From positions 1 to 52,352 of the IMG/VR virus record IMGVR_UViG_3300023110_001238: a stretch of 52,352 bases of DNA; one strand, given 5' to 3'. Positions 10,701-52,352 of the stretch are shown in pieces. Position 1 is the first letter of the stretch; each line of letters begins with the position of its first letter. The position numbers and the translations under genes were made by a program. The notes under the pieces were generated by a model that saw only the letters and a program-made list of their open reading frames with translations, was not told the DNA's origin and did no database searches. Source of the stretch: a virus.

Positions 10701-10985
10701 ATGGTAGATGTAGTTGATGTAGTAAATCAAATAGCAGCGGCTCAAAGCTCAGATGCTAAAGATAGTTTACATAACCTTTTATCACAAAAGGCTATGGAAG
10801 CTTTAGATGGTAAAAAACAAGAAATTGCTAAAAATTTATTTTCTAATGGTGAAACTCCACCAGTAGCAGATGATGATGGCAATATTGATGTGGAAGTTCA
10901 AGACACAGCTGACACTCCGGTTGAAGAGCCGGAAACAAATGTAGAAGTTGAAGAGCAACCAGAAGAAGAACAAGAACAAGAATGA
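10701..10985 (+). CDS. Acidic prohead core protein (gp67/gp68 position)
   Basis: A 94-residue, very acidic protein between portal and protease, where T4 encodes the core proteins gp67 and gp68. The N-terminal half (VVNQIAAAQSSDAKDSLHNL, then KAMEALDGKKQEIAKNLF) resembles conserved core proteins of marine T4-like phages. The C-terminal 40 residues are almost all Glu, Asp, Val, Pro and Thr. It probably forms part of the internal scaffold removed by gp21. It overlaps the next gene by four bases (ATGA). Which T4 core protein it corresponds to is not clear. Confidence 0.6.
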   Translation: MVDVVDVVNQIAAAQSSDAKDSLHNLLSQKAMEALDGKKQEIAKNLFSNGETPPVADDDGNIDVEVQDTADTPVEEPETNVEVEEQPEEEQEQE

Positions 10986-11731
10986 AACAATTAAACGAAT
11001 TTAGGGACATCGAAGAACTTTTATCTGAACAAGAAATAGATATCAAAAAATTTGATATTCTTGTCAGAGCTGGGTTAGCAGATAAAACAAAGATTCAAAG
11101 ACTTCATCGTATTTTAGATAAGATGAAAGAAGAGCGTCCTGTGTTTAATCCAACAGAAAGACGATTGTTACAAGATTTGTTTAATAAAATGGTTGGTCTT
11201 TTAACGGACAATCCACAATTATTCCAAAGAACACGCCGTGCGGTAAGAGAAGAATCGGAAGATATTACAACTGAACCCATTATTGAAGACAGGAAAGAAA
11301 AAACAGGACCAAATGACCCACCATTTGTTTTAATTTTAAAAAGAAAATCTTTTAGACCTTATCCAAACGGTATGAAAGTAGCATTATATCACAGCGCTAA
11401 ACTTGATAGATACTTTACTGTTCCTTATAGTGCAAAAGGATTTGAAACTCCTATTCAAGCTGAAAGCACAAATGACATAAATAGTGAAGTAGTTCAGGAA
11501 AGCGTAATGGACCAATTACATTCTATCGTTGCAAACAAGCAAGCGAAGAGTGTAAAGTTTGGTAATGGTCAAACTAGAAAAGTGGATCATTATACAGCTT
11601 CAGCTATGACAAATGTTCATAAGGCTCTTAAACCTGAAAACGCTAAAAAATATGCTGACCTTGTTCATAAAAGTCCAGAACACTTTATGAAAGGTTCAGA
11701 TTTTGCATTTAAGGCTCATAGTAAAAAATGA
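10982..11731 (+). CDS. Putative prohead or head-associated protein
   Basis: A 249-residue protein of unknown function inside the head assembly cluster. The N-terminus MKQLNEFRDIEELLSEQ contains an LSE sequence ending at residue 16 that fits the gp21 cleavage rule (L/I)xE. A helical region follows (RLLQDLFNKMVGLL), then from about residue 110 a domain containing PPFVLILKRKSFRPYPNGMK and RYFTVPYS. The C-terminus is rich in Lys and His. Its position and leader suggest a core or internal head protein. It overlaps the genes on both sides by four bases, so expression is coupled with them. Confidence 0.5.
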   Translation: MKQLNEFRDIEELLSEQEIDIKKFDILVRAGLADKTKIQRLHRILDKMKEERPVFNPTERRLLQDLFNKMVGLLTDNPQLFQRTRRAVREESEDITTEPIIEDRKEKTGPNDPPFVLILKRKSFRPYPNGMKVALYHSAKLDRYFTVPYSAKGFETPIQAESTNDINSEVVQESVMDQLHSIVANKQAKSVKFGNGQTRKVDHYTASAMTNVHKALKPENAKKYADLVHKSPEHFMKGSDFAFKAHSKK

Positions 11732-12163: not shown

Positions 12164-12385
12164 ATGGCATGGGTTACGGTTCCAGGTTCTGATGGTGTTT
12201 GGGAGTATGAAAATACTGCTACATCATCTGACACATATCCTGATGCTAACGGTACATATTCGGGCGGAGTAAGAAGTTTCACAAGACCGAATGGCGTAAC
12301 AGAAGAGATTTATGCTAGATGTAGGAAAGCCGGCGAAACAATTGAGCGTGGCGAACTTTCTAAAACCTACTATGATGCACAATAG
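12164..12385 (+). CDS. Small conserved phage protein of unknown function
   Basis: A 73-residue protein. The sequence AWVTVPGSDGVWEYENTAT with DTYPDANG is a pattern I associate with small proteins of marine T4-like phages, but no function is known to me. It is short, aromatic and likely beta-rich, with one Cys and no membrane segment. It lies between the basic core protein and the prohead protease, so it is probably late and head-related. It starts one base after the TAA of the preceding gene. Confidence 0.55.
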   Translation: MAWVTVPGSDGVWEYENTATSSDTYPDANGTYSGGVRSFTRPNGVTEEIYARCRKAGETIERGELSKTYYDAQ

Positions 12386-12402
12386 ATTTAAGGGAAAGAA
12401 AC

Positions 12403-13050
12403 ATGAAACTCATAACAGAAACTATTGAAAATGTAAAAGTTCTTACCGAAGAAAAAAACGGTAAGAAAAAACTATACATTGAAGGTACATTTTTGGTTGG
12501 CGATACAGTTAATCGTAACAACAGAATGTATAAAATGGATACTCTCAGAAATGAGGTTGATAGATATAACGAAGAGTATATTAAAACGAATCGTGCTCTT
12601 GGTGAGTTAGGTCATCCTGATACACCAACAATCAACCTTGAAAGAGTTTCCCATAAAATTGTTTCTTTGAGTGAAGATGGAAATACATTTTATGGTAAAG
12701 CTCAAATTTTAGAAACACCTTATGGTGATATCGTTAAGAATTTTTTAGAAAACGATGTTAGCATTGGAGTTTCTTCAAGAGCTTTAGGTTCGGTCGTTCA
12801 AACAAAAGAAGGTTATAATTTGGTGCAAGACGATTTAAAACTTGCTACGGCGGCTGATATTGTTGCGGATCCGTCCGCACCTGGTGCTTTCGTTAATGGC
12901 ATCATGGAAAATAAAGAATGGATGTTCGTTAAAGGGTCTTGGGTAGAACAAGACTTTGACCATGCCAAGAAAGCAATCAGAAAAGCATCAGCCAGAGAAA
13001 TCGAAGCGGTTGCTTTGAAATTATTTGAAAATTATATTCGAAAACTTTAA
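12403..13050 (+). CDS. gp21: Prohead protease gp21
   Basis: A 215-residue homologue of T4 gp21, the serine protease of the prohead core that cleaves scaffold, capsid and internal proteins after (L/I)xE sites. It belongs to the herpesvirus assemblin-type fold. The likely catalytic His is H71 in GELGHP and the nucleophile Ser is in IGVSSRA (124-125). The N-terminal VKVLTEE fits self-cleavage. It precedes the scaffold and capsid genes as in T4. It matters for the window because several late proteins carry leaders that match its site. Confidence 0.93.
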   Translation: MKLITETIENVKVLTEEKNGKKKLYIEGTFLVGDTVNRNNRMYKMDTLRNEVDRYNEEYIKTNRALGELGHPDTPTINLERVSHKIVSLSEDGNTFYGKAQILETPYGDIVKNFLENDVSIGVSSRALGSVVQTKEGYNLVQDDLKLATAADIVADPSAPGAFVNGIMENKEWMFVKGSWVEQDFDHAKKAIRKASAREIEAVALKLFENYIRKL

Positions 13051-13053
13051 TTT

Positions 13054-13061
13054 TATAAATA
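13054..13061 (+). promoter_or_regulatory. Late promoter upstream of gene 22
   Basis: A perfect TATAAATA starts three bases after the gene 21 stop and lies 26 bases before the scaffold ATG, with AAGGAG in the leader. It would drive the abundant scaffold and capsid proteins. Confidence 0.7.
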
Positions 13062-13087
13062 TAAGATAAAACATAAGGAGAATCCTA

Positions 13088-14185
13088 ATGGCAACAAATA
13101 AACTTATGGAAGCCGCTGCTGATATTCTTGCAACTAGCAAGTCTAACGCACCAGCTATGCCTCCACAAAAGTTACCAGGTGAGGTTCAAGATTTAGGTGG
13201 TCCAACCAATACTAATTCTAAACCACTTGATGATTCAAATAAATTGAAGCTTCAAACACCTGATAATTCAGCAAAGAACAAAGCGTCTATTGCTGCTAAG
13301 CCATCTGCTGCTTCCGCTAAAATGGAAGATGCAGAAGTTGAAGCACAAGAAGACGAATTCATCGAAGAAGAAAACTTAGAAGAAACACAAGAAGTTGAAG
13401 CTAATTCTGTTGATGAAGAAGAAACAGAAGAAGAAATCAAAGAAGCTTGGAAGAAAAAAATGAAAGAAGACATCGACAATATGTTTGCTGACGATGAAAC
13501 TATTTCAGAAGAATTCAAATCTAAAGCTACTACAATCTTCGAAACTCGTGTTCATGACCGTGTAACTCAAATCCAAGAACAAATGGAGGCTGAATATGCT
13601 GGTCAATTAGAAGAAGCTATCGATACAATTAAGAATGACCTAACTCAAAAAGTTGATGATTACCTTTCATATGTTGTTGAACAATGGATGGAAGATAATG
13701 AAATTGCTATTGAATCAGGTTTGCGTTCTGAATTAACAGAAGAGTTTATCGCAGGTATGAGAACATTGTTCACTGAACATTATATTGATGTTCCTGCCGA
13801 AAAAGTTGATTTGGTTGATGAGTTAGCTACTAAAGTTGAAGAACTTGAAAGCAAACTCAACGAAGAAATCGAGCGTGGTGTTGAATACAAAAAAGAACTT
13901 GTTGAATCACGCAAAAATGAAATTACTCGTGTTGTAACAGACGGTCTTACAGAAACTCAAGTTGAAAAAATTAAATCACTTGCAGAAAGTGTTGAATTCT
14001 CCACAGAGGACGAATACAAATCCAAACTTGAAACAATCCGTGAGAACTATTTCCCATCAGGTGTTAAAAAAGCTGATGAAGAACAACTTCACGAAAATGT
14101 AGAAGATGAGACAACAGAAGACAAGAAGATTTCTGATCCTTTTGTAGCTGCTGTTTCTCAAGCAATTAGTAAAACAAAGAAATAA
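13088..14185 (+). CDS. gp22: Prohead core scaffolding protein gp22
   Basis: A 365-residue scaffold protein in the gene 22 position. It is highly charged, with a long acidic stretch (about residues 78-120, mainly Glu), then predicted helices and coiled coil through most of the rest (for example KVEELESKLNEEIERG). This composition and the position between protease and capsid are typical of T4 gp22, which forms the inner core of the prohead and is degraded by gp21 to small peptides. The C-terminal AAVSQAISKTKK resembles other gp22 ends. Sequence similarity to T4 is weak, so the call rests partly on position. Confidence 0.88.
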   Translation: MATNKLMEAAADILATSKSNAPAMPPQKLPGEVQDLGGPTNTNSKPLDDSNKLKLQTPDNSAKNKASIAAKPSAASAKMEDAEVEAQEDEFIEEENLEETQEVEANSVDEEETEEEIKEAWKKKMKEDIDNMFADDETISEEFKSKATTIFETRVHDRVTQIQEQMEAEYAGQLEEAIDTIKNDLTQKVDDYLSYVVEQWMEDNEIAIESGLRSELTEEFIAGMRTLFTEHYIDVPAEKVDLVDELATKVEELESKLNEEIERGVEYKKELVESRKNEITRVVTDGLTETQVEKIKSLAESVEFSTEDEYKSKLETIRENYFPSGVKKADEEQLHENVEDETTEDKKISDPFVAAVSQAISKTKK

Positions 14186-14199
14186 TTTAGGAGAACAAT

Positions 14200-15546
14200 A
14201 TGTATTTGTCCGAACAATTACAAACTAAATGGGCAGGCGTGCTAGACCATCCTGATTTAGCCCCTATTCAAGACCCATATAAAAAGGCTGTTACAGCTGT
14301 TGTTCTTGAAAACCAAGCTTTAGAAATGAGCAAATCTAACGAAGTGCTTTCTGAAGCTGTACCAACTAACGCAGCTTCGGCTGGTTTAGGTTCAGGTGGT
14401 GCTGCTGGTTTTTCAGGTTCTGCTGCTGCTACAGGTCCAGTTGCTGGTTTTGATCCGATTCTAATTTCATTAGTTCGCCGTTCATTACCAAACTTAATCG
14501 CATACGATGTTGCTGGTGTTCAACCAATGACAGGTCCTACAGGCCTTATTTTTGCTATGCGTTCATTATACGAAGGTCAATCAGGTCCTGAAGCTTTCTA
14601 TAACGAAGCTAATACAGGTCATTCTGGTTTAGGTACTGCACAATCAGACATCGCTGTTGGTGCTGCTGCTGCTAACACCTTTGTAGGTAACGCAGCTGCT
14701 GTTGGTGCTATGTCAACCGCTAAAGCAGAAGCTTTAGGTGACAGTTCTAACACATTCCAAGAAATGGCATTCTCAATTGAGAAAGTAACTGTTACTGCTA
14801 AAACTCGTGCATTAAAAGCAGAATACTCAATTGAATTAGCACAAGACCTTAAAGCTGTTCATGGTCTTGACGCTGAAACAGAATTAGCAAATATTCTTTC
14901 AACAGAAATTCTTGCTGAAATCAACCGTGAAGTTGTTAGAACAATCTACTCTGTTGCTAAAACAGGTTGTCAGACTGGTACAACAGCTGGTGGTCAGTTC
15001 GATTTAGATACTGATTCAAACGGTCGCTGGATGGTTGAAAAAATTAAAGGTCTTGCTTTCCAACTCGAAAGAGAAGCAAATGCGATTGCAAAATTAACTC
15101 GTAGAGGAAAAGGTAACATCGTTATCTGTTCATCAGATGTTGCTTCTGCTCTTGCAATGGCAGGTCTTTTAGACTACAACCCAGCACTACAAGCACAAAC
15201 TAACTTAACAGTTGATGATACAGGCAATACATTTGCAGGTACATTATTTGGTCGCATTAAAGTGTATGTTGATCCATACGCTCCAGTAAATGCTTCTAAA
15301 GAATTTGCTGTTGTTGGTTATAAAGGTTCTAACGCTTATGACGCTGGTCTGTTCTACTGCCCATATGTTCCATTACAAATGGTTCGTGCAGTTGATACAG
15401 GTACTTTCCAACCAAAAATTGGCTTCAAAACCCGTTACGGTTTAGTTGCTAACCCATTTGCAGAAGGTACTAACCAAGGCGAAGGCGCATTAAATGTGTT
15501 ATCTAACAACTACTATCGTGCATTTAAAGTTGCTAACTTAATGTAA
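14200..15546 (+). CDS. gp23: Major capsid protein gp23
   Basis: A 448-residue HK97-fold major capsid protein. Conserved T4-like segments include PNLIAYDVAGVQPMTGPTGL, FAMRSLY, EMAFSIEKVTVTAKTRALKA, YSIELAQDLKAVHGLD and IVICSSDVASAL. The propeptide contains EVLSEAVPTN, giving a probable gp21 cleavage after Glu52 (LSE/A); T4 gp23 loses 65 residues in the same way. It is followed by a strong terminator and preceded by AGGAG. Many Ala- and Gly-rich insertions lie between residues 50 and 170. Confidence 0.97.
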   Translation: MYLSEQLQTKWAGVLDHPDLAPIQDPYKKAVTAVVLENQALEMSKSNEVLSEAVPTNAASAGLGSGGAAGFSGSAAATGPVAGFDPILISLVRRSLPNLIAYDVAGVQPMTGPTGLIFAMRSLYEGQSGPEAFYNEANTGHSGLGTAQSDIAVGAAAANTFVGNAAAVGAMSTAKAEALGDSSNTFQEMAFSIEKVTVTAKTRALKAEYSIELAQDLKAVHGLDAETELANILSTEILAEINREVVRTIYSVAKTGCQTGTTAGGQFDLDTDSNGRWMVEKIKGLAFQLEREANAIAKLTRRGKGNIVICSSDVASALAMAGLLDYNPALQAQTNLTVDDTGNTFAGTLFGRIKVYVDPYAPVNASKEFAVVGYKGSNAYDAGLFYCPYVPLQMVRAVDTGTFQPKIGFKTRYGLVANPFAEGTNQGEGALNVLSNNYYRAFKVANLM

Positions 15547-42164: not shown

Positions 42165-43211
42165 TTGGTTGATAAAAGAGTTGATACTACACAAAATGCT
42201 AGTGTTACAGAACTTTTTCCAGCATTGGTTTTTAATAACAATTATAAATGCTCAACCGTTGAACACTTAAGAAAATATTTGGAAAAAATAAACTTTTCAA
42301 CCACAAATGTGAAAAAGACATTTGTTAATACATCAAATATAGATGCCGGTAAAAAAGTGATTCAGAATTTAGATACCATGAAGCCCGCTATCTATAAAGA
42401 TAAAATGGAAAATGCAATAGGTATTAGTAACTTTTTGTTTGAATTGAATAAAAGTAATCCTATTGAAAAGGTTATTTGGGGATACAGAGAAAAACCTATT
42501 GGTATTCCATCAAATCACGCAGGAGATATTTTTGTATTTTTTAAATCAAAACAAAAAATAGGAATAAGTTTAAAGGCTGGTACAGTAACATCAAAAGAAC
42601 CTCTTTTAAACACATATGTAGCAACAACATATAAAAAGTTAAAAAAAGAAAAAGAACTAAAAAAACTTGAAGATGAATTGTGGAATAAAGTTTATTCCAA
42701 AGTTCCAGGTGCAAAAGACATAGCATCAAAAGCAAATTATATGACAAAGAAAAATGAAGTCACTTCGTTGTATGTTACATATTTTACACATCATCAAAAA
42801 GAAGCTGATGAATTATATAATCAAATGTTATTGGTTTCTCGTCAGCAAATATGTGATGTAATTAATAGACTTTCTTTGAAAGAATTTAAAGATTGGATTA
42901 GAAATAATTTTAATTTACAATCAAACAAAGTAGAGGTGCCTTTAATATTAGTTAAAGCTGTTGGAAAAACTGCAAGTCAAAAATCGGATGATTTGGCTTC
43001 TTTATTACCATCAATAAAAAAGTTTAAAGCTTATTTAAACAAAAGTTCTGTTCAAGGATGGTTTATTGATGTTCAATCAGGCAATATTAAAAAAACATTA
43101 ATTATGACAATCAGAAGTGATTCTGGCGTTAGAGCAGAAAAAAAACCAAGTCAGCAAGGCAGATTAGGAAAATACACCATGTTAAAACTACAATATAGCG
43201 GCATACAATAA
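42165..43211 (+). CDS. Putative PD-(D/E)xK nuclease-like protein
   Basis: A 348-residue protein with TTG start and AAAGGAG seven bases upstream. Around residues 115-140, HAGDIFVFFKSKQKIGISLKAG places an Asp before two strands and a SxK in the second (GD...SLK), the spacing of the PD-(D/E)xK nuclease core. The rest is helical and basic, with YFTHHQKEADELYNQMLL. No close family is recognised. It opens a late operon and overlaps the ligase-like gene by one base, so a role in DNA or RNA processing is plausible but unproven. Confidence 0.5.
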   Translation: MVDKRVDTTQNASVTELFPALVFNNNYKCSTVEHLRKYLEKINFSTTNVKKTFVNTSNIDAGKKVIQNLDTMKPAIYKDKMENAIGISNFLFELNKSNPIEKVIWGYREKPIGIPSNHAGDIFVFFKSKQKIGISLKAGTVTSKEPLLNTYVATTYKKLKKEKELKKLEDELWNKVYSKVPGAKDIASKANYMTKKNEVTSLYVTYFTHHQKEADELYNQMLLVSRQQICDVINRLSLKEFKDWIRNNFNLQSNKVEVPLILVKAVGKTASQKSDDLASLLPSIKKFKAYLNKSSVQGWFIDVQSGNIKKTLIMTIRSDSGVRAEKKPSQQGRLGKYTMLKLQYSGIQ

Positions 43212-44440
43212 TGAAATTTTCAGATTACTTAACAGAAGCTAACTTATCAAAGAATGTTCATTTAGAACATTTGGAAGATGAAGTATTAAACCGTGGTGTC
43301 ACAGGCGCCAGAGATGCTATTAACTTTTTACAATCTTTAAGAGATATGTTAGCAGGTAATTCTATTTCTCATATCAATGTTACAACAAAATGGGACGGTG
43401 CGCCTGCTGTGTTTGCAGGTATTAATCCAGAAAATGGCAAGTTCTTTGTTGGAACAAAAGGTGTATTTGCTAAAAACGCCAAACTTAATTACACACCACA
43501 AGATGTTGATAAGAATCATCCAAATCCAGGTTTAAATAAGAAATTAAAACTAGCATTGAGATATCTACCAAAACTTGGTATCAAAGGTATTCTACAAGGC
43601 GATATGATGTTTAGTAAAGGTGATATTAAATCAGAAGTTATTGATGGTGAGAAAATGGTTACATTTACACCAAACACAATCACCTATGCCGTACCAGCTG
43701 ATTCAAAGTTAGCAAGTAATATGCAGGCCGCTCAAGTTGGAATTGTCTTTCATACTTCTTACACAGGTCAAAAAATGGAAGATATGAAAGCCAGTTTCAA
43801 CATTGACATTAAGAATTTAGCAACAACAAGAGATGTTTGGTTCCGTGATGCAGACTATACTGATGCTTCAGGTACAGCAACATTTACATTACAAGAAACA
43901 AAAAATATTACAAGAGTATTATCAGATGTTGGTTCATTATTTAAGAAAACTAATCCATTAGCAATGAATCGTGTTGCAAATAATGATAAGATAAGAAACT
44001 TTATTAAAACATTTAATAATAAAAAAGTAAGAGAAGGCGAACCAATTAGAGATACTATTTCACATACAAGAGAACTTATACTTGATGTTGAAAAACAAAT
44101 GAATGATAATATTTTGGACGCAAAACGAGAAGAAACAAAACGCAACCGTCAAGCAGAGAAGACGGAGATTATGCGTTTTTTCCGAACATATGCAATTGAA
44201 CTCAAAAAGATGTTTGATATTCAGAATGGTTTGATTGAGGCTAAAATGATGATAGTTCGTAAGTTACAACAAGTAGAACAAGTTGCAAGAACATTCATCA
44301 AAACGGATTCTGGATATAGAATAACTGCACCAGAAGGATTTGTTGCAGTGGATCATTTAAAAGGAAACGCAGTGAAGTTGGTTGATAGACTAGAGTTTAG
44401 TCAGGCTAATTTCAATGCAGCTAAAAACTGGAGTAAATAA
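43211..44440 (+). CDS. Ligase-like nucleotidyltransferase with capsid-targeting-type leader
   Basis: A 409-residue protein. The N-terminus MKFSDYLTEA resembles the leader of T4 internal head proteins (MKTYQEFIAEA) and has a gp21 site LTE/A at residue 9. The enzyme shows covalent nucleotidyltransferase motifs in order: motif I K60-W-D-G63, a middle GILQGDMMF (126-134), motif IV E375-G-F-V378 and motif V AVKLV (387-391). A long helical insert (about 260-360) lies between the middle motif and motif IV. DNA or RNA ligase activity is inferred; RNA ligase-like proteins of this type (DUF6267) occur in marine phages. It overlaps the preceding gene by one base. Confidence 0.7.
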   Translation: MKFSDYLTEANLSKNVHLEHLEDEVLNRGVTGARDAINFLQSLRDMLAGNSISHINVTTKWDGAPAVFAGINPENGKFFVGTKGVFAKNAKLNYTPQDVDKNHPNPGLNKKLKLALRYLPKLGIKGILQGDMMFSKGDIKSEVIDGEKMVTFTPNTITYAVPADSKLASNMQAAQVGIVFHTSYTGQKMEDMKASFNIDIKNLATTRDVWFRDADYTDASGTATFTLQETKNITRVLSDVGSLFKKTNPLAMNRVANNDKIRNFIKTFNNKKVREGEPIRDTISHTRELILDVEKQMNDNILDAKREETKRNRQAEKTEIMRFFRTYAIELKKMFDIQNGLIEAKMMIVRKLQQVEQVARTFIKTDSGYRITAPEGFVAVDHLKGNAVKLVDRLEFSQANFNAAKNWSK

Positions 44441-44731
44441 ATGGCATACGATTTAAATCAAATTATAGCTCAATATGGTACAGATGATTTTGGTTTCTCA
44501 ACCGATTTTTCTACCGTATCGGAAGCAGAATACAACACAAAAATTGTTGAAGAAGTAAAAGCAGAAGATACAGCAATCACTTCTCAAAAAATGCAACAAC
44601 TTGAGAAACTTGTTTTACCTTTCTTCACCAAATTACTTAAGACAGCTGATAAAGAATACATTTATTGGCCAAATAGAACTGCGGCTGTTGAAGCACAAAT
44701 ACAAAAAATATTACAAATTACACGAGGTTAA
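44441..44731 (+). CDS. Conserved small phage protein of unknown function
   Basis: A 96-residue protein that starts immediately after the ligase-like gene. The C-terminal half MQQLEKLVLPFFTKLLKTAD followed by KEYIYWPNRTAAVEAQIQKI is a well-conserved pattern in cyanophages and other marine T4-like phages. The N-terminal half is acidic. No catalytic motif is visible and no capsid leader. It is immediately followed by the HAD gene, so all three genes are likely made together late. Confidence 0.65.
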   Translation: MAYDLNQIIAQYGTDDFGFSTDFSTVSEAEYNTKIVEEVKAEDTAITSQKMQQLEKLVLPFFTKLLKTADKEYIYWPNRTAAVEAQIQKILQITRG

Positions 44732-45451
44732 ATGGAAACATTTGGTGAATTTTTGACCGAAGGAAAAGATGACAAAGGTGGTCTAACCATTTTTGACATT
44801 GATGATACTCTCTTCAAAACAACAGCAAGAGTTAATGTTGTTAAGGGTGGTAAAAAGGTCAAAGAACTCAAAACGGGTGAATACAATAACTATCGCTTGA
44901 AAAATGGTGAGAGCTTTGACTTCTCTGAATTTAAAGATGCGTTAAAGTTTCAGAAAGAATCGAGACCAATCAGAAGAATGATGGCAAAAGCCAAAGCTAT
45001 TCTTCAAAATGCCATGAGAAAACCAAAAAGTAAAGTAATTGTTGTGACTGCACGAAATAACATGGACAACAAACAAGTATTTTTAGATACATTTAAACAA
45101 CATGGTTTTCCAATTGAACGAGTTAGAGTTGAACGAGCTGGTCGCCTCGCTGATGTATCAGGAACAGCACAACAAAAAGCAATCATCATTTATAATTATT
45201 TAAAAACAGGACAATTTGGTCGTGTTAGATTATTTGATGATAGTGTTGAGAACCTTAAAAAGTTTTTAAGTTTAAAAAGATATTTTCCAAAAGTTGAGTT
45301 TCAAGCATTTTATGCTAAAGATGATGGTTCAGTAAAAACAATTAAAGAAGAACATGGTGCTGGTGAATGGGGCACATCAGAATTACTGAATAAATATTTA
45401 GACGATACACCCTATTCAAGGCCAAAAAAGAAAAAAGAAAAAAAAGTATAG
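44732..45451 (+). CDS. HAD-family phosphatase with capsid-targeting-type leader
   Basis: A 239-residue haloacid dehalogenase-fold protein. Motif I is FDIDDT with D22 and D24, motif II is VVTARNN near residue 107, and motif IV is LFDDS with D169-D170. The first ten residues, METFGEFLTE, align position by position with T4 MKTYQEFIAE, with the same gp21 site followed by Gly11. The T4 Pnkp end-healing enzyme has a HAD phosphatase domain; here a polynucleotide 3'-phosphatase role is inferred from the ligase and kinase neighbours, not shown. The C-terminus is Lys-rich. Confidence 0.78.
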   Translation: METFGEFLTEGKDDKGGLTIFDIDDTLFKTTARVNVVKGGKKVKELKTGEYNNYRLKNGESFDFSEFKDALKFQKESRPIRRMMAKAKAILQNAMRKPKSKVIVVTARNNMDNKQVFLDTFKQHGFPIERVRVERAGRLADVSGTAQQKAIIIYNYLKTGQFGRVRLFDDSVENLKKFLSLKRYFPKVEFQAFYAKDDGSVKTIKEEHGAGEWGTSELLNKYLDDTPYSRPKKKKEKKV

Positions 45452-45460
45452 GATTTTATT

Positions 45461-46327
45461 ATGATTTTACTTAATGATATTGTGGTTGGTACTATTACTG
45501 GTTATGATTTTGATAAAATAAAACCTTGGGTCAATTCATTAGACCAATCTGGTTTTACCGGCACAAAAGCAATGATATGTTATAATGTTGACTATGATAC
45601 GGTTGATGAATTGATTAAAAGAAACTATTCAATTCTTGCTTTTGGTAAAGACGAAGAAAACAAAACACTCAAATATCCCAAAGAAAACTTTTCAATTGTT
45701 GTGGAAAGATTTCTACATCTCTGGTACCTACTCAAACGATTTAAAGGACAATATAGATACATCATTACAACCGATGTCAAAGATGTTATCTTTCAGACCA
45801 ATCCATCAGAATGGTTAGAAAAAAACATTGGTGATAAAGAAATCAATGTTGCATGTGAATCTATAAAATACAAAGATGAGAATTGGGGCACCAACAACTT
45901 AATGAAATCTTTTGGTGCATTGATACATGAAGAATGTAATGACAATCTCATCTATAATGCAGGTACTATCTCTGGTAAATTTGATACAATGGTTGATTTC
46001 TTTTTGAACATCTATATGCTTTGTAATGGCACACAACACCTTATTGAAGGTGGTGGCGGACCAGACCAAGCCGCATTAAATGTTTTACTTAATATGAAAT
46101 CATACAAAGACATTACAAACTTTGCAAAATCAGAAGACGGTTGGGCTGCACAGTTAGGAACAACAGGACCACAAATTAAAGACCAATATGGAGATAAGGT
46201 TGTTGAACCAAGTCCAATAATGAAAGATGGTATGGTTTGCACATCAACTGGAACACCATTTGCATTGGTACATCAATATGACCGTGTGCCTGAGTGGAAA
46301 GAAATGATTGAGAAAAAATATGAATAA
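45461..46327 (+). CDS. Putative glycosyltransferase
   Basis: A 288-residue protein. The N-terminal GTITGYDFDKIKPWVNSLDQ opening, YIITTDVKDVIF (a DxxD-type metal site), NLIYNAGTISG and GGGPDQAALNVLL form a pattern seen in nucleotide-diphospho-sugar transferases encoded in bacterial glycan clusters. The donor and acceptor are unknown. It starts nine bases after the HAD gene and overlaps the next gene by eight bases. Confidence 0.65.
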   Translation: MILLNDIVVGTITGYDFDKIKPWVNSLDQSGFTGTKAMICYNVDYDTVDELIKRNYSILAFGKDEENKTLKYPKENFSIVVERFLHLWYLLKRFKGQYRYIITTDVKDVIFQTNPSEWLEKNIGDKEINVACESIKYKDENWGTNNLMKSFGALIHEECNDNLIYNAGTISGKFDTMVDFFLNIYMLCNGTQHLIEGGGGPDQAALNVLLNMKSYKDITNFAKSEDGWAAQLGTTGPQIKDQYGDKVVEPSPIMKDGMVCTSTGTPFALVHQYDRVPEWKEMIEKKYE

Positions 46328-47048
46328 TATTATTTTTGTGCCGGTTGGAATACCACTAAACTTTCATGATGCCTATGATAAAGACAATCATTGGCGATAT
46401 ACAAAAGTCACCAGAAACTATCAGACCGTTGTTTATAATTTTAATGATTACCACATAGAAGATGGTACTTATGATATCCTTATAAAAGATAAAGGTTTTA
46501 AATGGGATATGGCTAGACATTTTATGGAAACTTATGATTATCGTGATTATGATTACATAGGTTTTTGGGACGATGACCTTGTTACTGATATAGAAAGTGT
46601 CAATCGTGGTTTAGAAATTGCAAAAGAAAATGATATAAAAATATGGCAGTTATCTACAATCGCTGGTTCTGATTCAAGTCATGGTATTTTACATCAAGAC
46701 CAAACCTGTAAATATTCACTTACAAATTTCAATGAAGGCATGGGTGTTTTCTTTCATTCATCATTGATACCTAAACTATTAAAGTTTTTTGAGTATCATG
46801 AGGTAAAAAGTGGATATGGTTTTGATTGGATATTTTCATCAATCACAAAAGAAAAATGTGGCGTGATACATGAAGTTTCAATGTATCATCCTGGCAAACA
46901 AACATATTATGATGTTAGCGAAGCAAATAAAGAAATGGCAGATATTTTTCAAAACATATATCCGAAATACATGAAAGAGGTTTATGATGAAGAAACTGGA
47001 CCATTTCAAGCAGAATATAAATTATATGAAACTACAATAAAGGTATAA
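46320..47048 (+). CDS. DUF707-like putative glycosyltransferase
   Basis: A 242-residue protein from ATG 46320 (an in-frame ATG at 46308 lies inside the previous gene). YIGFWDDDLVTDIESVNRGL with the acidic DDD, then WQLSTIAGSDSSH, then GMGVFFHSSLIPKLL and SGYGFDWIFSSI resemble the DUF707 family, thought to be GT-A-like glycosyltransferases. Overlap with the upstream glycosyltransferase suggests they act on the same glycan. Confidence 0.65.
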   Translation: MNNIIFVPVGIPLNFHDAYDKDNHWRYTKVTRNYQTVVYNFNDYHIEDGTYDILIKDKGFKWDMARHFMETYDYRDYDYIGFWDDDLVTDIESVNRGLEIAKENDIKIWQLSTIAGSDSSHGILHQDQTCKYSLTNFNEGMGVFFHSSLIPKLLKFFEYHEVKSGYGFDWIFSSITKEKCGVIHEVSMYHPGKQTYYDVSEANKEMADIFQNIYPKYMKEVYDEETGPFQAEYKLYETTIKV

Positions 47049-47050
47049 TT

Positions 47051-48187
47051 ATGGCAGAAGTTATTAAACTAAAAACCGCTCTAGGTTCATTGAGTAAAGA
47101 AACAAAGAAAGATTATGTAGTTGATAATCAAATTAAAGGCCGTAGTTTCTCAAGTAATCATGCTAAGTTACTGAAACACATGGACAGATTGATTGAATTA
47201 CAAGAAGGTAAAAGACCAAGACCTGTGATGTTTCATATGTCACCATGTAATCCTTGTAATCTAACTTGTTCATTCTGCTGTTTTGCCAATCGTGCCATGA
47301 AAGAGATGCTTACTGTTGAACAAATGAAATCAGCGATTGACCAATTTTGGGACCTAGGCGTGAGAGGCATGGAATTTACGGGTGGTGGCGAACCAACATT
47401 ACATCCAAAACTTGATGAAGTCATTGAATATGCCTACAATAAAGGTTTCAAAATGGGTATCTGTACCAATGGTTCTAAATTAAGAAAGATTAAGAATTGG
47501 CACATGATGTCATGGGTTCGTTTAGGAATGTATTCATTTGATGAAAAGAAACCCTATGAATATCACCTTGATGTGTTTGATGGTTTAGATATAGAAATCA
47601 CAGCCGCATATGTGTGGGACGGTGCCACAGACACCTCCACGAATCCAAATATCACAGGCGAATGGTTAGATGACCATGCGAAGAAACTTGCAACCAACGA
47701 ATATAAAGAAGAAAACTTTATGAAGATGTTGAAGTGGGTTGAAGACCATAAAATACCATGTCGTATTGCTTTCAATGCCATCAAAGACACCAAAATTGTG
47801 GCTCAAGACATTGAAACCATTAAAGGTTTAATTGCTAAACATGAAGCGGAACATGGTAAATTACAATACGCTTTCTTATCTGATTTTAATTTTAAGGGCG
47901 AAAGACGAAACAATCACTGTTATATGCACACAGTTAAGCCTTGTGTCTTTACAGATGGTAATGTATATGTTTGTCCATCTGCTGAGTTAGCACCAGAAAA
48001 TAATTATGCAGTTAATGATGAATTTAAATTGTGTGATATTGAAGGCATTACAGATTTTTATAATTCACAAGTAGGTGGTGCAGATGAATTTAGAAGACAC
48101 CATGATTGTTCATTCTGTAAGTATGCTTATCAAAACGAATTGATTGATGATGTATTGATGCCAACTAAACATAATGATTTTGCTTAG
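47051..48187 (+). CDS. Radical SAM protein with SPASM-like C-terminus
   Basis: A 378-residue radical SAM enzyme. The cluster motif C69-N-L-T-C73-S-F-C76 lies in a 66-77 stretch with two extra Cys; the SAM-binding FTGGGEPTLHPK follows. The C-terminal part has CYMHTVKPCVFTDGNVYVCP and CSFCKYAY, a Cys pattern like SPASM auxiliary clusters. Such enzymes modify peptides or sugars. Its cluster (two glycosyltransferases, sulfotransferase, methyltransferases) favours sugar chemistry. It starts three bases after the previous gene and ends overlapping the GTG of the next. Confidence 0.82.
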   Translation: MAEVIKLKTALGSLSKETKKDYVVDNQIKGRSFSSNHAKLLKHMDRLIELQEGKRPRPVMFHMSPCNPCNLTCSFCCFANRAMKEMLTVEQMKSAIDQFWDLGVRGMEFTGGGEPTLHPKLDEVIEYAYNKGFKMGICTNGSKLRKIKNWHMMSWVRLGMYSFDEKKPYEYHLDVFDGLDIEITAAYVWDGATDTSTNPNITGEWLDDHAKKLATNEYKEENFMKMLKWVEDHKIPCRIAFNAIKDTKIVAQDIETIKGLIAKHEAEHGKLQYAFLSDFNFKGERRNNHCYMHTVKPCVFTDGNVYVCPSAELAPENNYAVNDEFKLCDIEGITDFYNSQVGGADEFRRHHDCSFCKYAYQNELIDDVLMPTKHNDFA

Positions 48188-48831
48188 TGTACTCGCCTGT
48201 TCACAATACATTTTTTGTTCATGTACCAAAGACAGCTGGTTCTTCTGTTGAAAAATGGTTATGGGACGCTAATGGATTTCCAAATAAAGATTTAATTTTT
48301 ACAAATAAATATTCACAGTATGAATCAAGAAATTTTTTATTTGGTTATGTTGAAGGATTAGGTGATTTATGTCAACATATGAAATCAAAATTTGCTATTG
48401 AAAGTCATTTAAAAGAGTTTACAGAAGCTAAATATAAATTTTCTATTGTTAGAAATCCTTTTGATAGGTTTGTTAGTGAATATTATTTCCTTCAAAAAAT
48501 AAAACCTAATGATACAATAACATGGAAATTATTGTTAGAACAATATCATGACAATTCACGAAAATGGATTCACTTTCATGAACAACATACATTTTTATAT
48601 GACGGTCAAAATCTTCTTGTTGATGATGTTTTTAGATTTGAAGATTTACAGTTTATGGAAAAAACATTAAAAGAAAAACTTTCTCCTAGATTTAAATTAT
48701 ATTTTGAAAACAAAAATCCAAAAAAAGATGAAAGACATTATAGTGAGATTATTCCAAAAGAATATAAAAATGAATTAATTGAAAAGTGTAAGCTTGATTG
48801 TGAAATATTTGGTTATGAATTTGAGGAATAA
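48187..48831 (+). CDS. Sulfotransferase family 2-like protein
   Basis: A 214-residue protein with GTG start overlapping the previous TAG. FVHVPKTAGSS (about 10-20) is the 5'-phosphosulfate loop and IVRNPFDRFVSEYY (87-100) the 3'-phosphate binding segment of PAPS-dependent sulfotransferases that act on carbohydrates. The following VFRFEDLQFM fits the family. It probably sulfates a glycan made by the neighbouring transferases, in the cell or on the virion. Confidence 0.8.
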   Translation: MYSPVHNTFFVHVPKTAGSSVEKWLWDANGFPNKDLIFTNKYSQYESRNFLFGYVEGLGDLCQHMKSKFAIESHLKEFTEAKYKFSIVRNPFDRFVSEYYFLQKIKPNDTITWKLLLEQYHDNSRKWIHFHEQHTFLYDGQNLLVDDVFRFEDLQFMEKTLKEKLSPRFKLYFENKNPKKDERHYSEIIPKEYKNELIEKCKLDCEIFGYEFEE

Positions 48832-48834
48832 ATT

Positions 48835-49473
48835 ATGAAATTTGAAAATGCTGAAGATATTAAAAAAGTCTTTGATGAAAAATATTTTGAGGACGGTGTT
48901 CGTAATCGTGTAAGTGCTTATGAGAACTATCGATGGATGCCAGAAAGAACCATACGAGAAGCTTCTTCGATAATAAATAATATTGAATTTGATAATGTAT
49001 TAGATTTTGGTTGTGCAAAAGGTTTTATGGTTTATGCCATGAGATTATTGGGAAAAGATGCACACGGTGTTGATGTATCAGAATATGCTGTTACAAATGG
49101 CCATGAAAAAATTAAACAATATTTAAAAAAAATAGACAATGTTGAAGACATTCAAGGTGGTTGGGATTTAATTATTGCAAAAGATGTATTAGAACATATT
49201 CCAAAAGAAAATATTCCATCCGTATTAGCTGGGTTTAGGCGAAGATGTAAAAACTTATTTGTTGCTGTTCCACTTGGTGATGGTAAAAGATATCGTATTC
49301 GTGAATATGAAATGGATGTAACTCATGTTGTCAGAGAACCAGAAGAATGGTGGTTGACAACTATCGTAGAAGCTGGATTTAAAATCAAATATTTTGATTA
49401 TGAATTTGGTCACCTTAAAGAAAATTGGACACATGACCATCCTCATGGAAATGCGTTCATAGTTGCAGAATAA
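48835..49473 (+). CDS. SAM-dependent methyltransferase
   Basis: A 212-residue class I methyltransferase. Motif I VLDFGCAKGF is at 55-64, followed by HGVDVSEYAV (motif II) and the catalytic-region DLIIAKDVLEHIP typical of the UbiE/COQ5-like and glycan-modifying methyltransferases. The N-terminal 45 residues may bind the substrate. The gene follows the sulfotransferase by three bases, suggesting late modification of a sugar. Confidence 0.82.
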   Translation: MKFENAEDIKKVFDEKYFEDGVRNRVSAYENYRWMPERTIREASSIINNIEFDNVLDFGCAKGFMVYAMRLLGKDAHGVDVSEYAVTNGHEKIKQYLKKIDNVEDIQGGWDLIIAKDVLEHIPKENIPSVLAGFRRRCKNLFVAVPLGDGKRYRIREYEMDVTHVVREPEEWWLTTIVEAGFKIKYFDYEFGHLKENWTHDHPHGNAFIVAE

Positions 49474-49482
49474 AAGGAAAAA

Positions 49483-50049
49483 ATGGAACATTTTTATACA
49501 ACAATTCATGGATGGTTTGACTTTCAAAATTTATATAGCAAAATGGTGAATATTCATCCAACAGAATCACATTTTATTGAAGTTGGAGCCTATTATGGTA
49601 GAAGTGCCGCTTACATGGCGGTTGAAATAGCAAACAGTGGAAAAAATATTAAGTTTGATGTGATTGATACCTGGCGTGGTAGTCCAGAACACCAAGAAGG
49701 TGGATGGGACCATAGAGAGGATATGGTTAATGATACTGCATATGATGTATTTTTAGAGAACATGAAACCAGCTGAAGGATATTATAATCCAATTAAATCA
49801 GCAAGTCTTGAAGCAGCTAAATTATATGAAGACAGAAGCTTAGACTTTGTCTATATTGATGCTAACCATGAATATGAATCTATTAGAGATGATATTCAGA
49901 CTTGGTTTCCGAAAGTTAAAATTGGCGGTTATATTGGTGGTCATGATTATGTTCGAGGCCAATATGGTGTATATCGTGCCGTTGATGAAAGATTCGGAAC
50001 AGATTTTGAAATGTATGGTGTCTCTTGGTTACATAAAGTAAAATCTTAA
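49483..50049 (+). CDS. Class I methyltransferase (Methyltransf_24-like)
   Basis: A 188-residue methyltransferase. Motif I HFIEVGAYYGRSAAYMAVEI, then KFDVIDTWRGSPEH, and DRSLDFVYIDANHEYESIRD with the metal-binding-like DANHxY, are the pattern of the Methyltransf_24 group found in glycan clusters. It ends the operon that started at 42165. Confidence 0.8.
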   Translation: MEHFYTTIHGWFDFQNLYSKMVNIHPTESHFIEVGAYYGRSAAYMAVEIANSGKNIKFDVIDTWRGSPEHQEGGWDHREDMVNDTAYDVFLENMKPAEGYYNPIKSASLEAAKLYEDRSLDFVYIDANHEYESIRDDIQTWFPKVKIGGYIGGHDYVRGQYGVYRAVDERFGTDFEMYGVSWLHKVKS

Positions 50050-50053
50050 ATAT

Positions 50054-50061
50054 TATAAATA
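50054..50061 (+). promoter_or_regulatory. Late promoter upstream of the adenylyltransferase-kinase gene
   Basis: A perfect TATAAATA starts five bases after the preceding stop and lies 35 bases before the next ATG, with GAGGCGGG as the probable ribosome-binding site. Confidence 0.7.
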
Positions 50062-50096
50062 GAAGTAAATATTAATAAACTGCTGTAGAGGCGGGA

Positions 50097-52313
50097 ATGA
50101 AATTTAGAGATTATATACAAGAGGCGCCAGAGCGCCATGCCGTAATGGCTTTTGGTAGGTTACAACCACCAACAACAGGTCATGAGGCTCTAGTCAATAA
50201 AGTTAAAAGTGTAGCAAAACAACATAATGCTAGTCATCATGTCGTTCTATCACATTCTAACGACCCTAAACAAAATCCTCTCTCAGCAAAACAAAAAGTT
50301 AAACACGCTAGACGATTTTTTCCACATACAAATATAACAACATCATCTAGCAGTCACCCAAACTTTTTAAAACAAGCAGAAAAGTTACATAAAAGTGGTG
50401 TGACACACTTACATATGGTTGCAGGTTCAGATAGAACAGGTGAATATCATAAGTTATTAAACAAATACAACGGCACCCACAAAGGCGCATTGTTTAATTT
50501 CAAAGGTATTCGAGTTCATTCTGCCGGACAAAGAGACCCCGATGCACCTGGTATTTCAGGTATGTCTGGTTCTAAATTGCGTTCTCATGCAGCTAAAGGT
50601 AATTTTAATGAATTTAAAAAAGGTGTTCCACGCCATGTGCCTGAACACCATGCAAAAGAACTTTTTCATGACTTGAGAAAAGGTATGAACATTAAAGAAG
50701 ACATTGATATTAATTTTGAGTTTGAAGAACTTCTATCTGAAGGAGTTCATGATAAAGGAATATTTAAAGCTGTATTTTTGGCAGGTGGTCCTGGCTCAGG
50801 TAAAGATTATGTTTTAGCAAACACACTACAAGGCCATGGTTTAACAGAAATCAATTCAGACAAAGCATTTGAATATCTTTTAGATAAAAATAAAATATCT
50901 AAAGTGATGTTAAATCCAGATCCTAGTGAAACAGAAAAAAGAAACTTTGTTCGTGGTCGTGCAAAAAACATAACAGAGTTAAAACAAAAACTTGCATTGA
51001 TGGGTAGAAATGGTTTAATCATCAATGGTACAGGCGAAGACCTTGATAAGATTAGAAGAATTAAAGGCGCTCTTGACCAATTAGGTTATGATTCAGCTAT
51101 GATTATGGTGAATACGGCTGATGAAGTATCTAAACAACGAAATGTAGAACGAGGTCAAAATGGTGGCCGAACTATTCCAGAAGATATCAGAAAACAAAAA
51201 TGGGATGGAGTTCAAAAGGCTAGACCAGTATTTGCAGAATTGTTTGGTGACAAATACATGGAGTTTGATAATTCGGAAGACTTAAGAAAAGCTGGTCCTG
51301 ATGTGGTCAAACAGAAAAAAGATGAGATGAATCAAATATTTGATTATGTGAGTAAGTTTGTTGAAGAACAACCACAATCACCACGCTCACAAAAATGGAT
51401 TGCAAAAGAACTACAAGCAAAAGATAAAACAGCTTCACTTAAACAAATGCCTGATACTGGACAAGAAGCTCATCCAAACTCAAAAGCAAAAGAAGAAGCT
51501 GGACGACTTGGTTTAGAATACTACGGCTTTGGTCGATATGGTAAAGATGGTGCGGTGACACACCGTGTTGTTGGTGATACTTTAGTTCAAGTTGTAAAAA
51601 ATGAAATTGAACCTAAGATGGAGAAAAAAGTTAATGAGCAGTTTGAGGAATTCTTAAACGAGCAAGTATCGGTTACAATTACCGGTGATAATGCTGATGA
51701 AGTTTCTAAAATGATTAAGAAACTCAAAGCGGATGAAGAAGAACAGGAAGAAGTTGAAGAACATTATGCTTTATCAGAACCAGATGCAAGAACATTATTA
51801 ACTTTTAGAAGAGAATACAAATTAAACGAAGATTTAAGAAATTGGTTTAATCCAAATCATCCAGATGGTGGTTGGAAAAGAATTGATTCAAAAGGTAATG
51901 TCAAAGGTGATTGTGCAAGAGAACCTGGCGAACCCAAACCAAAATGTATGAGCAATAAAAAGCGTTCTTTATTAACACCTAAAGAAAGAGCCAATGCTGT
52001 TAAAGTTAAACGCAAACATGATCCTGTTGCTGACAGAAAAGGTAAAGGTGGAAAACCAGTTAATGTTTCTAACTTTGGTAAAGGTAAAATATCAGAATCA
52101 ATTGACAAAGGAACAGAAGTGGGTATTTCAATGGCAGCTTCTGGTGAAAATTTAGTTAGACCAAATACACAATCTAACAAAGCTAAGAAAAAACCATTTG
52201 AATCTTATACTGCTGATGCTGGAACAGAATCACTATCAGCACAAAAACAAGGCGAATTAAAAAGACGAGGTATTGATTTAATTTCATTTAGAGCAAAGAG
52301 GCCAATAGGATGA
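50097..52313 (+). CDS. Adenylyltransferase-kinase polyprotein with capsid-targeting-type leader
   Basis: A 738-residue modular protein. It begins MKFRDYIQEAP, with a gp21-type site IQE/A at residue 9. Residues 15-175 are a nucleotidyltransferase (HxGH) domain: FGRLQPPTTGHEALV with TGH, and GISGMSGSKLR, as in NMN adenylyltransferases. Residues 222-420 are a P-loop kinase: FLAGGPGSGKDYVL and IINGTGEDLD. From about 580, GGWKRIDSKGNVKGDCAREP plus GEPKPKCMSNKK is a small Cys/Pro domain (DUF6321-like) found in phage polyproteins. Internal sites ELLSE/G (215) and EFLNE/Q (522) lie between modules. The gene is late and overlaps the next start. Confidence 0.8.
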   Translation: MKFRDYIQEAPERHAVMAFGRLQPPTTGHEALVNKVKSVAKQHNASHHVVLSHSNDPKQNPLSAKQKVKHARRFFPHTNITTSSSSHPNFLKQAEKLHKSGVTHLHMVAGSDRTGEYHKLLNKYNGTHKGALFNFKGIRVHSAGQRDPDAPGISGMSGSKLRSHAAKGNFNEFKKGVPRHVPEHHAKELFHDLRKGMNIKEDIDINFEFEELLSEGVHDKGIFKAVFLAGGPGSGKDYVLANTLQGHGLTEINSDKAFEYLLDKNKISKVMLNPDPSETEKRNFVRGRAKNITELKQKLALMGRNGLIINGTGEDLDKIRRIKGALDQLGYDSAMIMVNTADEVSKQRNVERGQNGGRTIPEDIRKQKWDGVQKARPVFAELFGDKYMEFDNSEDLRKAGPDVVKQKKDEMNQIFDYVSKFVEEQPQSPRSQKWIAKELQAKDKTASLKQMPDTGQEAHPNSKAKEEAGRLGLEYYGFGRYGKDGAVTHRVVGDTLVQVVKNEIEPKMEKKVNEQFEEFLNEQVSVTITGDNADEVSKMIKKLKADEEEQEEVEEHYALSEPDARTLLTFRREYKLNEDLRNWFNPNHPDGGWKRIDSKGNVKGDCAREPGEPKPKCMSNKKRSLLTPKERANAVKVKRKHDPVADRKGKGGKPVNVSNFGKGKISESIDKGTEVGISMAASGENLVRPNTQSNKAKKKPFESYTADAGTESLSAQKQGELKRRGIDLISFRAKRPIG

Positions 52314-52352
52314 TTAACTTTAAACAATTTATTTCAGAAGACTGGCAGAAAG
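52310..52352 (+). CDS. Start of a further gene with capsid-targeting-type leader (3' truncated)
   Basis: An ATG overlaps the preceding TGA (ATGA). The fourteen visible codons encode MINFKQFISEDWQK. The first ten residues align with T4 MKTYQEFIAE: M, then an aromatic at position 4 and at 7, Ile8 and Glu10, followed by Asp. The rest lies outside the window. A ribosome-binding site is not obvious, but translational coupling is likely. Confidence 0.6.
   Translation, partial: MINFKQFISEDWQK

Follow-up and report, generated by a model that had tools for sequence, protein, structure and literature searches.

Four genes in a 52,352-nucleotide stretch of viral DNA (IMG/VR record IMGVR_UViG_3300023110_001238, positions 1 to 52,352; hereafter, the window) encode proteins that begin with a similar short leader. 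The N-termini are MKFSDYLTE/A (gene at 43211, 409 aa), METFGEFLTE/G (44732, 239 aa), MKFRDYIQE/A (50097, 738 aa) and MINFKQFISE/D (52310), in which the slash marks the predicted cleavage position; the last gene is truncated by the end of the window, with 14 codons inside it. These N-termini, as quoted in an earlier reading of the sequence (the original prediction), are borne out letter for letter, and so is its statement that two of the leaders have the exact T4 length and two are one residue shorter, with Glu at positions 9, 10, 9 and 10, respectively. In all four, aromatic residues are located 6 and 3 positions before the Glu, and Leu or Ile 2 positions before it. In T4 internal protein IPIII, targeting depends on residues 4 and 7 and processing on residues 8 and 10 (PMC9026906); when numbered backwards from the Glu, the key residues of the window leaders fall at the same positions. 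The layout of a T4-type capsid-targeting leader (CTS), namely a propeptide of 10–19 residues with key hydrophobic residues and Leu/Ile at −2, is thus found in the four genes, two of the leaders being one residue under 10. The features considered here are as follows:

12403..13050, + strand: homologue of the prohead protease gp21, predicted to carry out the processing (PF03420, E 2e-35; phrog_207, E 2.5e-74)
14200..15546, + strand: gp23 major capsid protein (PF07068, E 4e-143), with an LSE/A cleavage-type site, Glu at residue 52, seen in the sequence
43211..44440, + strand: leader-bearing DUF6267 protein, 409 aa (PF19782, E 2e-112; alignments)
43211..43237, + strand: leader of the DUF6267 protein, MKFSDYLTE, with cleavage predicted after Glu9 (sequence, relatives, model)
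44732..45451, + strand: HAD-type phosphatase-like protein, 239 aa, with a DIDDT motif (phrog_415 polynucleotide kinase, E 3.7e-5; alignment)
44732..44761, + strand: leader of the HAD protein, METFGEFLTE, with cleavage predicted after Glu10 (relatives with their own leader versions)
50054..50061, + strand: TATAAATA, T4-type late promoter box, 43 nt before the putative polyprotein gene
50097..52313, + strand: 738-aa protein (putative polyprotein) with an NMN/NaMN adenylyltransferase-like domain, a P-loop kinase, a GFGRYG module and a DLRNWF domain
50097..50123, + strand: leader of the putative polyprotein, MKFRDYIQE, with cleavage predicted after Glu9, a residue that does not vary among 12 fused homologues
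50721..50741, + strand: first internal leader-like site (aa 209-215), FEELLSE/G, preceding the kinase domain (kept in aligned fused homologues)
51486..51593, + strand: GFGRYG/VTHR module, aa 464-499 of the 738-aa protein (common to other leader-bearing virion proteins)
51642..51662, + strand: second internal leader-like site (aa 516-522), FEEFLNE/Q (sequence; homologue pattern scan)
51810..51830, + strand: third internal site (aa 572-578), REYKLNE/D, immediately preceding the DLRNWF domain (separate genes in relatives)
52310..52339, + strand: leader MINFKQFISE of the fourth gene, which runs off the window (sequence)

The gp21 homologue and the capsid-protein site on which the original prediction had relied were both recovered, and a gene for the scaffold gp22 is located at 13088; gp21 is also present in five of the six large relatives. 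The box TATAAATA is found 26 nt before the gene at 10701, in the prohead core region, and 34 nt before gp22 as well. The window contains 6 copies of the box, against 6.9 expected, so there is no over-representation and only its placement before genes is notable; this placement is weakly suggestive of co-expression of the putative polyprotein with the head, because AT-rich intergenic DNA favours such boxes.

A start-codon-agnostic ORF scan was performed using the strict leader pattern M.{1,4}[FYW]..[FYW][LIVM].E. Among the 62 ORFs of the window, three complete genes and no others match, against an expectation of 0.07 matches calculated from the rate with any single other residue replacing Glu (Poisson P ~6e-5 for three). 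The scan was extended to a pooled set of 1,658 ORFs of T4-like records, comprising the window, four large IMG/VR relatives, HTVC008M, S-CREM2 and part of T4, together with partial records of Melnitz-3, S-SZBM1, S-SCSM1, Syn19 and S-SM1. With Glu, 29 matches were obtained, compared with 1–4 for each other residue; after grouping of homologues, the Glu matches represent 14 families with unrelated bodies, in which T4 IPII and IPIII are separate families, vs. at most 4 for other residues. Since the pattern was devised after examples had been seen, this residue-substitution control is the fairest figure, and some of the Glu matches look like chance (e.g., MSWNYYMVE, in a 61-aa ORF). As a positive control, the pattern recovers IPII and IPIII of T4 and misses IPI, whose leader is longer; no matches were obtained in the ORF scan of podovirus P-SSP7. 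Pelagibacter phage HTVC008M gives no strict match either, which counts against the leader reading.

The DUF6267 family shows which leader positions are under constraint. In 35 relatives that share 29–89% identity with the window protein, Glu9 never varies and only Leu or Ile is found at position 7; Phe or Tyr occupies position 6 in 33 of them, no constraint is seen at position 8, and positions 10–13 are variable, with indels. Residues 1–15 are disordered in the AlphaFold model (pLDDT 84), so folding cannot account for the invariant Glu9. Together with the 14 leader families, this conservation answers the check proposed in the original prediction, that homologues should keep the leader while their bodies differ. 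K60, D62 and G63 (KWDG) are also invariant in the family alignment, as in a candidate nucleic acid ligase (KxDG, covalent nucleotidyltransferase fold); no significant match was found in the PDB by sequence or by fold search, and hence the name “ligase” is not claimed. In the S-PM2 record (AJ630128, 103025-104804; L210), a frame change splits DUF6267 and a cytidylyltransferase, and the BFVD contains a 591-aa S-PM2 entry matching DUF6267; a sequencing error or a strain difference may explain this discrepancy between the record and the entry.

Relatives of the HAD protein carry leader versions of their own (MLSFRQYLFE, MKSFSNFLTE, and LKNYKKYITE), and the leader is lost in some of them. A search of the PDB with the HAD family profile and a search of the phages collection with the protein gave no match, and owing to the latter result, the evidence for this family rests on IMG/VR relatives. 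In Methylophilales phage Melnitz-3 (L003), whose DUF6267 protein starts with MINFSKYITE/D, two further leaders were observed: a RimK-like ATP-grasp protein (82-1131) starts with MTQKFSQFITE/E when read from an upstream TTG, and a phrog_2496-type protein (12203-13288) starts with MQGFKTFLSE/A; the window homologue of the latter, at 42165, is without a leader.

The 738-aa protein contains further leader-like copies that the original prediction overlooked. Its first domain has a HIGH-superfamily fold and matches NadD structures (Foldseek, E 7e-5), and its kinase domain is of the Zeta_toxin/AAA_33 type (Pfam Zeta_toxin, E 4e-10); T4 polynucleotide kinase is a further match of the model (Foldseek, E 3e-3). 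The AlphaFold model of the whole chain is poor (pLDDT 55), with only the first domain alone being reliable, and the stretches that contain the internal sites are of low confidence, as expected of linkers. At junction 1, Leu/Ile at P3, Glu at P1 and Gly at P1′ are kept in all aligned fused homologues, while P2 varies. The internal pattern [FY]..[FYLIM][LIM].E occurs in 16 copies in 13 fused homologues, all at aa 203-215 or 516-540, compared with a mean of 1.4 and a maximum of 5 in shuffled controls; when Glu was replaced in the pattern, Lys gave 12 copies and the other residues tested gave 0–2.

Two segments of this protein are encoded by separate genes in other viruses. The kinase of HTVC008M is a separate gene that starts with MIPFILKE/GLYDPGIFKAFFLAGGPGSGK, which aligns with LLSE/GVHDKGIFKAVFLAGGPGSGK of the window protein, and the DLRNWF domain is a separate gene in two IMG/VR relatives, with the starts MKSFKQFVNE/DLRKWF (L086) and MKTFNTFVVE/DLRKWF (G001). 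The leader or leader-like beginnings of these separate genes suggest that the fused genes have retained former leaders as internal cut sites. Judged from its sequence, the 738-aa protein is probably a polyprotein, in which cleavage motifs resembling the leader lie at the domain boundaries.

The GFGRYG/VTHR module was described using a profile of approximately 36 residues (GLxYxGFGRYG..G.VTHR..D.LV.V). The profile matches the window polyprotein family, the NMNATs of S-SM1, Syn19 and S-SCSM1, in which the module is located just behind the leader, gp12 and gp14 of S-CREM2 (two copies), and a related large protein in one further record (L124), with no confident match elsewhere among the records searched and no Pfam match above threshold. 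The proteins in which the module is listed (window, 51486-51593; gp12 and gp14 of S-CREM2, L005; and L208, L209 and L211) are otherwise unrelated, and the module occurs in 319 phage records, nearly all of cyanophages. Our guess is that it might serve as a secondary packaging or DNA-binding element.

Published virion proteomes allow leader status to be compared with packaging, the detections being of NMNAT homologues in four cyanophages and of other S-CREM2 leader proteins rather than of proteins of the window virus itself. A cytidylyltransferase/NMNAT has been found in virions of S-SM1 (PMC3037559), S-SZBM1 (PMC9146016) and S-SCSM1 (PMC9602691), and these proteins carry the leaders MKKFSAFLNE, MRFRQFIIE and MKSFLQFLKE, respectively. 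In S-CREM2, for which 52 virion proteins have been reported (PMC10665884), leaders are carried by the cytidylyltransferase gp154 (MKNFSSFLTE), the S-AdoMet lyase gp6 (PF23780; MKDFDSFLEE), the kinase gp14 (MKRFDAFLTE), gp13 (MKDLHSFLTE) and gp136 (MQTFSMFFSE), and gp12 contains a leader-like LRFASFMAE/A at residues 17-25. Therefore, all four virion-detected NMNAT homologues possess the leader. The S-PM2 homologue, which was not detected in virions (PMC3037559), is fused behind a leaderless DUF6267, so that leader status agrees with virion detection in five phages for this family. A counterpart of the virion search that the original prediction had proposed is thereby available from published data on homologues, with the S-CREM2 SAM lyase and kinase in addition. 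Across the whole S-CREM2 proteome, the enrichment is modest: pattern C matches 5 of the 52 virion proteins vs. 2 of 167 others (p 0.009), and p ranges from 0.009 to 0.056 over all the pattern variants tried, an initial regex with a fixed residue after Glu having given 2 matches (p 0.056) before it was relaxed post hoc. In the accessible part of the S-SZBM1 report, the leaderless DUF6267 protein of that phage (_141) is absent from the virion proteins listed; as a counter-example, S-SZBM1_191 and _192 carry leaders but are absent from the 30-protein list. The virion protein gp12 of S-CREM2 (L005, 7704-10313) is annotated as CRISPR-associated Cas9; this name has no support in Pfam, and the protein matches phrog_3561, of unknown function.

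These observations make it likely that the leaders of these aquatic T4-like viruses are T4-type CTSs that load enzymes into the head, where gp21 would cut them, the putative 738-aa polyprotein included, before ejection. The leader-bearing genes would be expressed late, alongside head assembly; the aromatic residues 6 and 3 positions before the Glu would dock each enzyme on the prohead core; gp21 would cut after (L/I)xE and free the mature enzyme; and the latter would be retained in the head with the DNA and delivered at infection. Since leader-like sites precede the domains of the polyprotein, gp21 would release it as separate pieces, i.e., the NMN adenylyltransferase-like domain, the P-loop kinase, the GFGRYG module and the DLRNWF domain. 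Thus, with regard to the original claim that these enzymes are packaged, trimmed and injected, capsid targeting is well supported by position-specific conservation, unrelated bodies, the presence of gp21 and homologues in virion proteomes, and cleavage after the leader Glu by gp21 is predicted on sequence grounds. The steps of core docking and ejection, like the task of the cargo, are proposed here, and the virus probably ships an enzyme kit into the host with its DNA. Given the NMNAT-like domain, the PNK-like kinase, the HAD phosphatase, the KWDG protein and the SAM lyase of S-CREM2, this kit would most likely serve NAD+ supply or nucleotide/nucleic-acid end repair before phage gene expression. 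A broader proposal, which we hold to be evenly balanced, is that Kyanoviridae-type T4-like phages and their uncultured relatives use the CTS as a platform for enzymes, including polyproteins whose domains are mostly preceded by a leader-like site and would be freed in the head by the prohead protease before injection, and that the GFGRYG/VTHR module marks part of this cargo.

It is very unlikely that the shared N-terminus is an ordinary amphipathic start that aids translation or folding, with virion detection reflecting carry-over of abundant late proteins. Short motifs do recur, and carry-over was named as possible by the authors of cyanophage proteomes; however, the specificity for Glu (29 vs. 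at most 4), the invariance of a disordered leader and the match between leader status and detection in the NMNAT family of five phages all speak against this explanation, and because of that match, carry-over as the sole source of the virion enzymes was judged less likely. Somewhat more credible, although still improbable, is that the leader brings the enzymes to the prohead core, where they would do their work (on DNA ends during packaging, for instance), with no injected payload. The presence of homologues in virions proves packaging at most, and a kinase, a phosphatase and a ligase-like protein could serve DNA packaging or repair; on the other hand, the T4 internal proteins and Alt, which are packaged by the same route, are ejected, and an NMNAT and a SAM lyase would have no obvious use in the head.

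The alternative that deserves the most weight, though we consider it doubtful, concerns the polyprotein: only its N-terminal leader may be cut, the chain being packaged whole, with the internal motifs as fusion remnants or linker features. LxE is a short motif, the 738-aa protein contains 10 [LI]xE sites, some of them within domains, and NadR joins these two types of domain in a natural fusion. Against this stand the residues kept at junction 1 around a variable P2, the restriction of full F..[FL][LI].E copies to the boundaries, and the separate genes that match the segments, with a leader for the DLRNWF domain and a leader-like start for the kinase. Release of separate pieces by gp21 is the preferred reading of the 738-aa protein.

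The proposed system resembles that of T4 IPI, IPII and IPIII in its short N-terminal propeptide, key hydrophobic residues, (L/I)xE site, gp21 and conserved leader on unrelated bodies; it differs in that the T4 proteins are small inhibitors of GmrSD restriction enzymes, whereas the window bodies are enzyme-like and one of them is a multidomain chain with internal leader-like sites. The original prediction had set non-enzymatic T4 internal proteins against a set of enzymes as a distinct system. This contrast was overstated, because T4 Alt is an enzyme that enters the head, is cleaved by gp21 and is then ejected (PMC9026906), as is predicted for the window proteins, and virion-borne NMNATs and kinases have already been reported in cyanophages; the breadth of the enzymes is new. 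Alt is an ADP-ribosyltransferase with a 7-residue propeptide, a single enzyme with an unrelated body. That T4-like phages could load various proteins by means of the CTS has been proposed, in general terms, in a review of T4 (PMC9026906). The NMNATs among the cyanophage virion cytidylyltransferases and kinases (S-SM1, S-CREM2, S-SZBM1, and S-SCSM1) are direct homologues of the first domain of the polyprotein and carry the leader; the accessible parts of the reports describe these proteins without noting the leader or recognizing a packaging signal, and they are not polyproteins of the window form. In addition, the 738-aa protein, with at least two domains in one chain (NMNAT-like and kinase, plus two further segments) encoded with virion genes, resembles the polyvalent proteins (Iyer et al., 2017), which combine several domains per chain and are thought to be injected from the head, so that multidomain cargo as such is not unprecedented. 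Those proteins contain other domain types, including built-in peptidase domains, and occur mostly in portal-terminase phages, whereas the predicted cutter in the window is a separate gp21; none of their hallmark domains (e.g., MPTase, ART, and MuF) was found in the Pfam and PHROGs scans. NadR has the same order of domain types (NMN adenylyltransferase and P-loop kinase), but in the window protein a predicted cleavage site separates the domains and the kinase matches Zeta_toxin/AAA_33.

Three aspects are new: the wide range of enzymes that carry one leader in T4-like phages of aquatic origin, the concordance with virion proteomes, and the organization, in all probability, of one of them as a polyprotein; no earlier link between the leader and cyanophage virion enzymes was found in the part of the literature searched. 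The T4 internal-protein system thus has a real, widespread and apparently unrecognized extension, which takes it beyond small inhibitors to include enzymes and, probably, cleavable polyproteins. That NMNATs, kinases and an enzyme degrading SAM turn up repeatedly in cyanophage virions has lacked an explanation; the leader offers a mechanism, and it serves as a rule for predicting head cargo from sequence in T4-like phages, which are abundant in aquatic habitats. The question of enzymes injected before phage genes are read becomes directly testable.

Two other regions of the window were also inspected. The accessory block between the leader genes (45461-50049) encodes a glycosyltransferase-like protein, a DUF707 protein, a radical SAM protein, a sulfotransferase (PF03567) and two methyltransferases, none of which carries the leader. 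In the prohead core region, a 249-aa gene product (10982-11731) that has no Pfam or PHROG match starts with MKQLNEFRDIEELLSE/Q and is a candidate for an extra core or packaged protein.
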